Position numbers and translations under genes: made by a program
The notes under the pieces: generated by a model
The model's input: the letters and a program-made list of their open reading frames with translations, nothing else
The model's database searches: none
Told to the model about the DNA's origin: nothing
Shown here: positions 43,945-47,653 of the stretch, one piece after another
Position numbering within the stretch: the first letter of the stretch is position 1
Layout: each line of letters begins with the position of its first letter
Assembly (NCBI GenBank): GCA_903927345.1
Contig: CAIYMO010000053.1
Span: forward strand, 62,001 to 126,000
Length of the DNA stretch: 64,000 nt
From: an uncultured Armatimonadota bacterium
GTDB taxonomy: Bacteria; Armatimonadota; Fimbriimonadia; Fimbriimonadales; Fimbriimonadaceae
Reading direction: 5' to 3'

Positions 43945-44460
43945 GTGCAATACTTTGTAACTGGTACAGACGGTAACGAATATGGGCCCGTTGATTTGGC
44001 TACTCTCCAGGATTGGGTTCGTGATAACCGAGTCGTTCCGACGTCAAAGGTGCGCAACGCTACGAACGGGATGGTTCTCCAAGCAAGCACGATGCCCGAA
44101 GTATCGAATCTATTTCCACCGGCACCAGTTCCAACCATGGGCACCGTAGCTCCCATGGCAGGCTACGAGAGTCGCCCCAGCTATGCGCAGCCCGACATGA
44201 CGGCACAAATGATGCGCAACTATAACGACCAAGGCTGGAAGCCGTTCGGCATCGCACTCGCGCTCTCTCTAGCAACCCTCGCCGTTGGCGTTACAATCGG
44301 ATTTCTATCAATTTTCATTGGCTCCTATGCGATCCAAATGGGATGGAAGGCGAAAGAGGAGGATCAGCAAGGTGGTTGGGCTGCCCTAATCATCGCCGTG
44401 GTCTGCACAATCGCTGCCCTCGCCTTCCGATTCACCGTGGGTCCAATCTGGCGCCAATAA
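43945..44460 (+). CDS. GYF_2-like domain membrane protein (first of a tandem pair)
   Basis: 171 residues. The N-terminal 55 residues (MQYFVTGTDGNEYGPVDLATLQDWV...VVPTSKVRNATNG) have the YxxDGxExGPV...L..W signature of the GYF_2/DUF4339 fold. A Pro-rich linker follows, then a C-terminal region with two TM segments (IALALSLATLAVGVTIGFLSIFIGSYAI and ALIIAVVCTIAALAFRF). Possibly binds proline-rich partners at the membrane. Start GTG from the promoter geometry. Only three bases separate it from the paralogue at 44464. Confidence 0.8.
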   Translation: MQYFVTGTDGNEYGPVDLATLQDWVRDNRVVPTSKVRNATNGMVLQASTMPEVSNLFPPAPVPTMGTVAPMAGYESRPSYAQPDMTAQMMRNYNDQGWKPFGIALALSLATLAVGVTIGFLSIFIGSYAIQMGWKAKEEDQQGGWAALIIAVVCTIAALAFRFTVGPIWRQ

Positions 44461-44463
44461 TCC

Positions 44464-44925
44464 ATGCCCTATATTCTTTTGGCGAGGGATGGTAACGAGT
44501 ACGGCCCGGTCGAACTCGAAACCCTGGTCACCTGGGCAGAGCAAGGTCGTGTTCTCCCGAGGTCGTCAATCCGGATCACACCACAAGGCGAAACCGTCCT
44601 TGCCCACACCATCCCTGAACTAAATCTCTTTGACCAACCGCCGAAAGTCGTTGCTCCGCCGGTAGCGGAGTATGTCGAGTATCCAAGGGCAGACGGACCG
44701 CAGAACCCCAGGCCGTCGAAAGCCGGGCTTGTCTCCATCACATTCTGGAGTGTCTTATCGGTATCGCTTACCCTGTTCGGTTACCGATACGGCTCCTTTA
44801 TGGCATTCCTCGGCCTGATGGATATGTTCCAGGCGTGGAAGCGAAAGGACCCTTATATGACGGCAATATTCACCATCGGTGGGATTGCAATTGTCGTTGG
44901 AATCGCCGGATTGATCCTGCGCTGA
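44464..44925 (+). CDS. GYF_2-like domain membrane protein (second of a tandem pair)
   Basis: 153 residues, same layout as the gene before: MPYILLARDGNEYGPVELETLVTWAEQGRVLPRSSIR, a Pro-rich linker (QPPKVVAPPVAEYV), and two hydrophobic segments (ISVFWSVLSVSLTLFGYRYG-like and FTIGGIAIVVGIAGLILR). The domain starts share DGNEYGPV, so the pair arose by duplication. Ends two bases before the pdxH stop, convergently. Confidence 0.8.
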   Translation: MPYILLARDGNEYGPVELETLVTWAEQGRVLPRSSIRITPQGETVLAHTIPELNLFDQPPKVVAPPVAEYVEYPRADGPQNPRPSKAGLVSITFWSVLSVSLTLFGYRYGSFMAFLGLMDMFQAWKRKDPYMTAIFTIGGIAIVVGIAGLILR

Positions 44926-44926
44926 T

Positions 44927-45526
44927 TTAAGGCGCAAGGCGCTCAATCAACCATCCATTCTCGACCTTTGTGAATCGAAAGCGATCATGCAACCTCGAAG
45001 GGCGACCTTGCCAAAACTCAAAGGCGGTAGGGACCAATCGATAACCTCCCCAATGATCGGGGCGGTCGGTTCCCTCTGCCGCTACCCGCTCTTCGAGCTC
45101 GTCGCGCCCAGAAACAACCTGGCTCTGGGGACTCGCCGCACTCGCTTGTCGGCTGCTGGCGGGACGTGAGGCGAAATAGGCGTCCGACTCTTCGGCTGTG
45201 ACTTGGTGCACTTCCCCCTCGATACGCACTTGTCGCTCCAAGTCTCCCCACCAAAAAGTCATCGCGGCAAACGGGTTCTCCGTTAACTCCCGCCCCTTAC
45301 GAGATAAGTAATTCGTGTAGAACAGCAACCCATGATCTACTCCGCGAAGCAGCAACATTCGAGCCGATGGTCGACCGTCGGCCGTGGCAGTGCTCAGGCA
45401 GAATGCCTCAGGCTCAACCACGTTCTCATCCCGAGCCGTCCCGAGCCACTCTCGAAACATCAAGAATGGGTCTCGCAACACATCGCCTTCCATCAGTTCT
45501 CCTTTTGTGTAGTCGCTTCGTTGCAT
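44927..45526 (-). CDS. pdxH: Pyridoxamine/pyridoxine 5'-phosphate oxidase PdxH
   Basis: FMN enzyme making pyridoxal phosphate. 199 residues: SDYTKGELMEGDVLRDPFLMFREWL, AFCLSTATADGRPSARMLLLRG (FMN-binding), FYTNYLSRKGRELTENPFAAM, and GGYRLVPTAFEFWQGRPSRLHDR with the closing RLAP. ATG 45526 is right because the YTKGxL block at residues 6-11 is conserved in the family; a strong AAAGGAG before an internal ATG at 45493 is only coding sequence. PLP is the cofactor of glyA nearby. Confidence 0.94.
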   Translation of the reverse strand: MQRSDYTKGELMEGDVLRDPFLMFREWLGTARDENVVEPEAFCLSTATADGRPSARMLLLRGVDHGLLFYTNYLSRKGRELTENPFAAMTFWWGDLERQVRIEGEVHQVTAEESDAYFASRPASSRQASAASPQSQVVSGRDELEERVAAEGTDRPDHWGGYRLVPTAFEFWQGRPSRLHDRFRFTKVENGWLIERLAP

Positions 45527-45548: not shown

Positions 45549-46391
45549 GTGCCCGAGCTACCAGAAGTTGAGACTGTTCGCAGAGTTTTTGATCGTGTTT
45601 TGACGGGAAAGAAGATCGTTGAGGCCGAAATCGCAGAGGATTCCATAGTCCTAAAAAAGACTCCTGCAGAAGTCGTGAGACAATCCATAGTCGGCCGAAC
45701 CGTTACCGCAACCGGCAGAATCGGAAAATACTTCTGGCTCGAACTCGATTCGAAGCCTTGGCTCTTCGGTCACCTCGGAATGGCGGGATGGGTGCGAGAA
45801 ATTGGAGCCTCCACGATCCGGCTCCGCGAGCATGGTCAGGCGCCCATGGAAGATGCTGAGGGTCGCCCGAAGTTCCTCAAAATGCTGCTCACAGCTGAAG
45901 ACGGCAGGCAGGTCGTAATGACCGATGGTAGGCGCCTCGCTAGAATCTGGCTTTGCTCATCGCCTTCCGAAGACGTCGCGATCTCAAAACTAGGTCCAGA
46001 CTGCTACTCCGCACTTCCCTCTCCAGCGCAAATCCGTGACTCAGTCGCCCGGCGTTCCGCACCGATCAAAGCGCTCTTGCTCGATCAATCTCTCTTCTGT
46101 GGAGTCGGAAACTGGATCGCAGATGAAGTGCTCTACTTGGCTGGGATTCGCCCTTCTCGCCACGGCAAAGATCTGTCACTAGAGGACTGTGCAAGGCTTC
46201 ACGCTGCACTCGAACGTGTCATTTCTCTCGCCGTCGAAGTCGGAGCCGACAAAGAGAAGTTCCCCACCGAATGGCTATTCCACTATCGATGGGGCGGAGC
46301 AAAGGGCGACGAGTTGATCGATGGACAGACCATCATCCGAGAGCAGATCGGCGGTCGTACGACCGCCTGGGTTCCCTCGCGACAAGTCTAA
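45549..46391 (+). CDS. mutM: Formamidopyrimidine-DNA glycosylase with plant/fungal-like zincless C-terminus
   Basis: Base-excision repair enzyme for oxidised purines (8-oxoG, Fapy). 280 residues: MPELPEVETVRR with catalytic P2 and E3, RIGKYFW with K60, GHLGMAGW, and the H2TH block GVGNWIADEVLYLAGIRPSR. The C-terminus EWLFHYRWGGAKGDEL...GGRTTAWVPSRQV has no cysteines: instead of the bacterial four-Cys zinc finger it resembles the zincless finger of plant and fungal Fpg. GTG 45549 follows TATCCT by six bases. Confidence 0.92.
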   Translation: MPELPEVETVRRVFDRVLTGKKIVEAEIAEDSIVLKKTPAEVVRQSIVGRTVTATGRIGKYFWLELDSKPWLFGHLGMAGWVREIGASTIRLREHGQAPMEDAEGRPKFLKMLLTAEDGRQVVMTDGRRLARIWLCSSPSEDVAISKLGPDCYSALPSPAQIRDSVARRSAPIKALLLDQSLFCGVGNWIADEVLYLAGIRPSRHGKDLSLEDCARLHAALERVISLAVEVGADKEKFPTEWLFHYRWGGAKGDELIDGQTIIREQIGGRTTAWVPSRQV

Positions 46392-46396
46392 ACCGA

Positions 46397-47653
46397 TTAG
46401 AACAAGTGAATCGGGAATCTCTTGGTGAGTTCGAGGGTCTTCGCTCGAACTGCCTTGAGCCCTTCCTCGTTATCATGAACCCTTAGAGTCTGTGCGATCA
46501 GAGAAGCGATCTCGGCCATTTCACCCTCTTTCATTCCACGAGTCGTAACTGCAGGAGTTCCGAGACGGATGCCACTCGTCACAAAGGGCTTCTCTGGATC
46601 GAACGGAATCGAGTTCTTATTGGTCGTGATCGCGGCTTCATCGAGAGCGATCTGAGCAATTTTTCCGGTAACGCCGAATGGTCGAAGATCGATCAGCATC
46701 AGGTGCGAATCGGTTCCTCCAGAGACGACTCTGAAGCCTTCTTGTTCCATCGCAACCGCGAGTGCCTTTGCGTTCGAAGCGATCTGCTTCTGATACTCCT
46801 TAAACGAAGGTTGGAGTGCTTCGCCAAACGCAATCGCCTTCGCCGCAATGACGTGCATCAACGGTCCACCTTGGATACCTGGGAAGACCGACTTATCAAT
46901 CTCCTTGGCATACTGCTCCTTACAAAGAATCATTCCTCCTCGGGGGCCACGGATGGACTTGTGGGTCGTACTAGTCACGAAATCGCAGTGTGGAACCGGG
47001 GAATCGTAGATCCCGCCGGCGATCAATCCAGAGTAGTGCGACATGTCGCACATGTGCAGGGCACCAACCTCATCAGCAATCTCCCGGATCTTAGCAAAAT
47101 CAAACTGACGTGAGTACGCAGTCGCACCGCTGACGATCATCTTTGGCTTGGTCTCAAGCGCGGACTTGCGGAAGGCATCGTAATCAATGACCTCAGTTCC
47201 CTCAGCGACCCCGTAAGGAACGATGTTGTAAAACATGCCGCTAAAGTTCACGTGAGAACCGTGTGTCAAGTGCCCACCGTGTGCCAGGTTCATAGCCATT
47301 AGCGTGTCGCCGGGCTTTAGGAAGGCGAAATACACGGCCATATTGGCTTGCGCTCCGCTGTGTGGCTGGACATTTGCGTGCTCCGCGCCATAAAGCTCTT
47401 TTACGCGGTCAATAGCGAGTTGCTCGATCTCATCGACGACTTCGCATCCACCGTAGTAGCGCTTGCCAGGGTAACCCTCAGCGTACTTGTCGGTGAGGAC
47501 CGAACTCATCGCTTGGCGAACGGCCAAGGATGCGATGTTCTCAGAAGCGATCAGCTCAATATTCTCCTCCTGCCGCTTCTCTTCCTTGTTAATCAGGCCG
47601 AAGATGGTTGGGTCGGCTTGCTCGAGAGGGATGCGGTGAGGATGCTGAGGCAT
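46397..47653 (-). CDS. glyA: Serine hydroxymethyltransferase GlyA
   Basis: PLP enzyme interconverting serine and glycine with THF, main source of methylene-THF. 418 residues: [52 protein letters not shown] and [13 protein letters not shown] with the Schiff-base K232. Fifteen bases after the polysaccharide deacetylase gene; CATAAT four bases before ATG is suggestive but the operon from rpmE is the likely source of transcription. Supplies folate units used by MnmG. Confidence 0.97.

Follow-up and report, generated by a model that had tools for sequence, protein, structure and literature searches.

The window is a stretch of 64,000 nucleotides from an uncultured bacterium of the Fimbriimonadaceae (Armatimonadota). 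It contains, between pdxH and a serine hydroxymethyltransferase gene, a gene for a protein with the domains of the Fpg/Nei DNA glycosylases. The features of the locus are as follows.

45549..46391, + strand: zincless Fpg gene, 280 aa, GTG start, stop included
45549..45947, + strand: N-terminal Fapy_DNA_glyco domain, residues 1-133, with P2, E3 and K60 (Pfam PF01149, 101.8 bits)
45990..46253, + strand: H2TH domain, residues 148-235, with K174 and N188 (Pfam PF06831, 74.1 bits)
46230..46280, + strand: shortened capping (αF-β9/10) loop region, residues 228-244 (17 residues, from alignment counts)
46278..46388, + strand: zincless finger, residues 244-280, with R270 at 46356-46358 (from the alignment; predicted β hairpin with strands 263-267 and 270-274)
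44927..45526, - strand: pdxH, pyridoxamine 5'-phosphate oxidase, divergent neighbour, context only (TIGR00558, 228.8 bits)
46397..47653, - strand: serine hydroxymethyltransferase, convergent neighbour, context only (NF000586, 639.1 bits)

Both the Fapy_DNA_glyco and the H2TH domain of the window Fpg score over their Pfam cut-offs, and residues P2, E3, K60, K174 and N188 and the conserved finger Arg, R270, are each identical in every one of the 51 zincless rows from bacteria in the alignment used for the trees. The catalytic P2, E3 and K60 and the H2TH domain, which a preliminary description had assigned to 45549-46391 from the letters of the DNA, are thereby borne out. Full-length relatives with 89% and 88% identity are present in two genomes of the same genus. 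The stop codon of the gene lies 5 bases from the end of the convergent serine hydroxymethyltransferase gene. The gene neighbourhood is uninformative, the neighbours being common to six of 113 loci, one of which is the window's own. Beside pdxH, at 43945-44925, two small membrane-like proteins are encoded side by side. Their starts are similar, and the first one gives a sub-threshold match to GYF_2 (20.7 versus 25.8 bits).

Zinc-free finger, capping loop and predicted fold

In a MAFFT alignment the four Cys columns of E. coli MutM are occupied by E255, D258, V275 and R278 in the window Fpg, and a Pfam search up to E 1 reveals no zinc-finger model in the protein. With none of the four cysteines at the MutM columns, the replacement of the MutM zinc finger by a Cys-free segment, as proposed in the preliminary description, is confirmed. 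The finger segment of the window Fpg (GGRTTAWVPSRQ) aligns with that of Arabidopsis FPG (GGRTTAYVPELQ), and the motif GGRTTA is common to both. Among the best 80 of 216 loci, the complete zincless motif with a Cys-free finger segment is found in 77, including one (L072) that is split upstream of the finger. Of the remaining three loci, L040 and L048 leave the contig end and L043 has its frame broken at the finger. Outside these 80 loci, L106 and L165 have a single Cys left, at the third cysteine position. A broken zincless fpg frame is observed in two genomes of the window's family (L043, in G166:C1, and G011:C19:105765-106599), and represents either an assembly error or a pseudogene.

That the window gene is an ordinary zinc-finger MutM, whose cysteines escape notice because of a frameshift or assembly error past 46391, can be dismissed as practically impossible, since the alignment of the frame with Arabidopsis FPG continues as far as residue 279, the convergent gene follows 5 bases on and 77 of the 80 loci have the same Cys-free finger, with nothing speaking in favour of such an error.

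The length of the capping loop region was counted in the alignment as the residues from the A228 column to the F244 column. All 51 bacterial zincless rows have 17 residues here, and so have Arabidopsis FPG and all seven rows of a group of short-loop proteins with a complete four-Cys finger (L126, L127, L172, L174, L177, L184 and L185). Canonical MutM has 23-30 residues in this region (15/15 rows), a second Fpg/Nei paralogue 26-28 (9/9 rows), E. coli Nei 22 and L178 18. The window loop region is 11 residues below the commonest MutM length, which is the same difference as that between the specificity loops of most bacterial Fpg (23 residues) and of the plant and fungal enzymes (12 residues) in excerpts of an earlier study (PMC3188539).

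L178 (G377:C154, phylum of G293) combines a short loop with a Cys at the first finger position only, the other positions being occupied by S, S and V. Judged from these residues, its finger looks like a step between the zinc and zincless states, or like the product of an independent loss; its tree position, on a long branch, is unsure. Position 130 corresponds to the intercalating Phe of MutM. It is Leu in the window Fpg and in 43 of the 51 zincless rows, with Phe absent from 44 of the 51, whereas Arabidopsis FPG has Phe. As a consequence, the specificity of the window Fpg need not match that of the plant enzyme.

A sequence search against the PDB gives chains of Arabidopsis FPG as the best matches (199 bits, residues 1-279); the best bacterial MutM reaches 81.5 bits and is aligned to residue 233 only, that is, up to the capping loop and finger. 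The AlphaFold2 model of the window Fpg, built with 37 homologues, has a mean pLDDT of 94.0 and a pTM of 0.90. Residues 241-280 have block pLDDT values of 82-95 and form a C-terminal hairpin with strands 263-267 and 270-274. In Foldseek, Arabidopsis FPG ranks first (3TWK, 1.6e-32), with MutM behind (7.2e-23). Superposition with VIA-align gives Z 33.7 and an rmsd of 1.4 over 259 residues for 3TWM (42% identity), versus Z 27.9 and an rmsd of 2.5 over 256 residues for the best MutM (28% identity). The preliminary description had suggested a structure prediction of the last 45 residues; the model of the whole protein has a Cys-free β hairpin there and superposes best on Arabidopsis FPG.

The window Fpg obtains 165.8 bits with TIGR00577, the NCBIfam MutM equivalog, under the cut-off of 203.3, and 13.5 bits with the Pfam family Fpg-like_C (PF21218), under the cut-off of 27.1. 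Four other bacterial zincless proteins score 16.6-25.5 bits with PF21218, and Arabidopsis FPG 87.5. The PF21218 matches span the full length of the model, which was not used as a family definition.

Phylogeny and distribution among bacteria

The main tree was built from 83 rows and 229 columns, with the finger columns removed and E. coli Nei and L178 dropped; zincless and paralogue rows had been thinned before the first tree. Arabidopsis FPG is the sole eukaryotic sequence in the trees, and no fungal sequence is among those used. The 51 bacterial zincless rows form one clade (support 100/94), to which Arabidopsis FPG is sister (100/96). The branch after that carries the seven short-loop zinc-finger rows (99/95), and outside all these groups fall both canonical MutM and the second paralogue. 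The arrangement is the same in a second tree of 60 rows with all columns, from which 23 of the 51 zincless rows were dropped and in which the bootstrap had not settled; the support values listed for this second tree do not include the node joining Arabidopsis FPG.

The preliminary description had named grouping with ordinary zinc-finger MutM as an outcome that would speak against a plant-like enzyme. The AU test rejects such a grouping of the window clade when all columns but fewer rows are used (ΔlnL 80.8, p-AU 0.0018), but without the finger columns it is not rejected at 0.05 (ΔlnL 44.2, p-AU 0.081). For the latter test and the two that follow, E. coli Nei and L178 had again been dropped. 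Exclusion of Arabidopsis FPG from the group of bacterial zincless and short-loop zinc-finger proteins gives p 0.027, and nesting of Arabidopsis FPG inside one bacterial subset is not rejected (ΔlnL 11.4, p 0.29). The sister position of Arabidopsis FPG, a single eukaryotic sequence of odd composition, is therefore tentative, and transfer may have gone in either direction. Sequence, predicted fold and phylogeny (clade support 100/96) uphold the plant-like character of the finger, and its homology to the zincless finger found in plant Fpg is supported.

Because the short-loop zinc-finger clade sits next to the zincless clade and Arabidopsis FPG, the loop would have been shortened before zinc was lost, and this order, loop first and zinc second, is apparently the simplest reading of the sequences. 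The presence of zinc-finger forms in related bacteria means that the steps of zinc loss may be visible.

To describe the distribution of the family, strong relatives were defined as matches of at least 170 bits with the window protein, and 291 genomes of the phylum were searched. Of the 85 genomes in the window's family, 66 have a strong relative; among the 206 remaining genomes of the phylum there is none. The zincless motif was confirmed in all 33 sequences inspected from the 66 family genomes. A further family genome (G009) contains a 70-residue fragment with 56% identity, which was left out of the 66. Near relatives are annotated as Fimbriimonas and as Fimbriimonadaceae, Armatimonadetes. 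Matches of at least 160 bits occur in 12 of 246 genomes in the phylum of G293 (L088, labelled Phycisphaerales) and in 4 of 199 genomes in the phylum of G294 (L064, labelled Acidobacteria). The fingers inspected in seven of those 12 and two of those four are all zincless, one of them with a lone Cys. Other labels among the best 80 of 216 loci are Rokuibacteriota, Verrucomicrobia, Bdellovibrionales, Oligoflexia, Sandaracinaceae, Nannocystaceae, Krumholzibacteriota and Thiotrichales. Since 79 of the 80 loci are labelled MAG (L043 being the exception), misbinning is possible. One sequence that falls in the window's group, L039, comes from a record labelled as an archaeon.

The best solved relative of the window Fpg is a plant protein, as might be expected if the gene had recently been acquired from a plant or fungus, or came from contamination. 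This origin is highly improbable and is rejected on the grounds of distribution and tree: the 66 family genomes with strong relatives are joined by loci labelled as several other phyla, Arabidopsis FPG lies outside all 51 bacterial rows, and near relatives share neighbours. The zincless Fpg is a bacterial family that is sparse in other phyla, and the label 'plant/fungal-like', used in the preliminary description, needs widening. This bacterial family, the plant-type capping loop and the zinc-finger intermediates had all been missed in that description.

Repair genes of the host and proposed function

The window's own genome, with a stated completeness of 100%, contains one Fpg/Nei gene, and no Nei was found in it. 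Nth was not found in this genome either, the Nth model matching the MutY and OGG1-like genes only. MutY scores 270.4 bits with TIGR01084, just under the cut-off of 286.5, and endonuclease IV is present with 285 bits (cut-off 129.65). A HhH-GPD search shows an AlkA-like protein with 30.4 bits for NF007641 (cut-off 229). One further repair gene candidate was located in the same genome.

L189:1486-2385 (G000:C33:56705-57601): OGG1-like protein gene (TIGR00588, 158.2 bits, cut-off 397.85)

The OGG1-like protein scores 20.7 bits with OGG_N (cut-off 23); in the genome search the score is 22.3, counted over the cut-off together with its neighbours. With mammalian OGG1 it scores 107 bits, and LPGVGPKLADCICL...VPIDTHIW is aligned to the segment with the catalytic Lys and Asp of the mammalian enzyme. 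An ORF adjoining the OGG1-like gene looks like NAD ligase. The second Fpg/Nei paralogue (L117-L125), which occurs in the same family and order, has a start of the PELPD or PEYPD type, a zinc finger and, in eight of nine cases, a C-terminal extension around GR.LADR.LSRLLK..WP. The search of the window's own genome showed no copy of it.

Sequence, tree and model agree on a complete catalytic set, a Cys-free hairpin finger that keeps R270, and a short loop. A degenerate, non-catalytic DNA-binding relative of MutM might be suspected from the lost zinc site and from the loss of Phe at position 130 in 44 of the 51 rows; the identity of P2, E3, K60, N188 and R270 in all 51 zincless rows and the high confidence of the predicted fold make this very unlikely. 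The window Fpg is probably a working bifunctional DNA glycosylase/AP lyase with the Fpg/Nei fold, from a bacterial family that goes back to a common ancestor with plant Fpg. By analogy with the plant enzyme, it would act on Fapy lesions, hydantoins and AP sites in preference to 8-oxoguanine.

Following the established chemistry of Fpg, the N-terminal proline would attack C1' of the damaged nucleoside, after which β,δ-elimination would leave a 3' phosphate that could be cleared by the endonuclease IV present in the genome. If the plant enzyme is a valid guide, formamidopyrimidines and further-oxidised guanines (hydantoins) would be excised and AP sites cut, and action on 8-oxoguanine would be minor only. 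In the window's cell 8-oxoguanine would then mainly be left to the OGG1-like enzyme and MutY. Because Nth and Nei were not found, the zincless Fpg would be the only candidate seen in this genome for oxidised pyrimidines.

The literature on plant Fpg is not uniform with respect to these substrates. Weak 8-oxoG excision by the plant enzyme is attributed to its short loop in excerpts of two papers (PMC10573277, PMC6264785). The former, in the passages concerned, also refers to early work in which Arabidopsis MMH-1 excised 8-oxoG, to fewer mutations in E. coli strains deficient in fpg, or in both fpg and mutY, when they carry MMH-1 or its sugarcane homologues, and to knockout extracts in which loss of MMH-1 or of OGG1 reduced 8-oxoG repair about equally (PMC10573277). 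The plant rule of no 8-oxoG activity is thus not clean, which counts against the substrate assignment made here. The same passages mention two Nth homologues in plants (PMC10573277), so that the toolkit of the window's cell is only partly like that of plants.

An OGG1-like match with E ≤1.3e-37 is found in 63 of the 66 family genomes with a strong zincless relative; one of the others gives 6e-21 and two give none. OGG1 is also present in 16 of the 19 family genomes without a strong zincless match, and in two of the seven genomes with a short-loop zinc-finger Fpg (G240 and G241), and thus tracks neither the zincless gene nor the short loop. At E ≤1e-3, OGG1-like matches occur in 251 of the 291 genomes of the phylum, with the strongest in the window's family, and the weak ones among the 251 may be other HhH glycosylases. 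The search for ogg outside the phylum covered 60 genomes, comprising the window's own, 27 zincless genomes of other phyla and 32 others of those phyla. None of the 27 has a match above 33 bits (best 32.4); the best of the 32 comparison genomes has 47.9 bits and the window's own 157.4. Co-occurrence of zincless Fpg with OGG1 holds in the window's family (63/66) and fails elsewhere (0/27), and was rejected as a general rule.

Of 13 other-phylum genomes searched, seven have the zincless gene as the sole Fpg/Nei found. Together with the result for the 27 genomes, this would leave 8-oxoG:C without a glycosylase, unless the zincless enzyme removes 8-oxoG or the MAGs are incomplete. Such cells either manage with MutY and MutT alone, or are represented by incomplete bins, or have an enzyme that retains useful 8-oxoG activity. 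The last of these connects to a wider alternative, namely that the zincless, plant-related enzyme still serves as an 8-oxoguanine glycosylase of the cell, with other means of capping, and replaces MutM functionally. Both observations on the other phyla favour it, as does the ability of plant Fpg to lower mutations in fpg-deficient E. coli reporter strains, recorded in excerpts of one paper (PMC10573277). Against it stand the OGG1-like enzyme in the window's genome and a loop region as short as that of Arabidopsis FPG, the feature blamed for weak 8-oxoG excision in vitro, and on balance the alternative seems unlikely.

Returning to the preference for Fapy lesions, hydantoins and AP sites, a more comprehensive scenario may tentatively be put forward, which is possible but somewhat doubtful as a whole. 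Plant (and fungal) Fpg would derive from the bacterial family, in which the capping loop would have been lost before zinc, in zinc-finger enzymes that persist in present-day bacteria. In the family genomes the enzyme would have a plant-like role beside OGG1-type and MutY enzymes and, where Nth and Nei are missing, would alone start the repair of Fapy lesions, hydantoins and oxidised pyrimidines.

Comparison with known Fpg enzymes

Excerpts of the literature list plants and fungi as the members of the zincless PFNei group (PMC3188539), cite Arabidopsis MMH and human NEIL1 for zincless fingers (PMC9266487), or distinguish plant or eukaryotic Fpg, with its short loop, from bacterial Fpg (PMC10573277, PMC6264785). 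Bacterial Fpg figures in the same excerpts as the 8-oxoG enzyme (PMC3188539, PMC9266487, PMC10573277, PMC6264785), and a further paper mentions zincless fingers, in the part available, without naming their holders (PMC8307549). Term counts in the main text of the Fimbriimonas ginsengisoli genome paper show that base excision repair is mentioned and that 'glycosylase' and 'mutM' are absent. No report of a bacterial zincless Fpg was found in the open-access literature, as represented by excerpts, and most subscription papers lie outside this search. NCBI's CDD lists uncharacterised bacterial Fpg/Nei subgroups, which may include these proteins. What was known, then, are the fold and probable chemistry of plant Fpg; what seems new is a bacterial branch, undescribed in the literature searched, with zinc-finger intermediates. 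The family is a possible source of the eukaryotic gene. It is also a caution that behind an automatic 'MutM' label there can be an enzyme whose removal of 8-oxoguanine may be poor.

Human NEIL1 resembles the window Fpg in its zinc-free hairpin finger (PMC9266487, in excerpt), but a separate origin is argued for this finger in the relevant passages of PMC3188539. No chain named NEIL1 is among the 42 PDB sequence matches of the window Fpg or among the 50 structure-comparison matches listed, which excludes nothing. Bacterial MutM/Fpg, as known from E. coli, G. stearothermophilus and L. lactis, shares the fold, the catalytic residues and the H2TH domain with the window Fpg, but its zinc finger carries four Cys and its loop region comprises 23-30 residues, neither of which is true of the window protein. 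Arabidopsis FPG/MMH (3TWK, 3TWL, 3TWM) is similar in its catalytic residues, H2TH domain, Cys-free hairpin finger, loop-region length and fold; the window Fpg differs in being only 42% identical, in having Leu at position 130 and in its bacterial host. With 280 residues it also lacks a long C-terminal extension, unlike the PFNei reference of 390 residues in excerpts of PMC3188539. The short-loop zinc-finger Fpg proteins have the same 17-residue loop region and form a sister clade in the trees, but retain all four finger cysteines in seven of seven cases. Together, the zincless family and these short-loop zinc-finger relatives constitute a natural series in which it may be asked which change altered the specificity.
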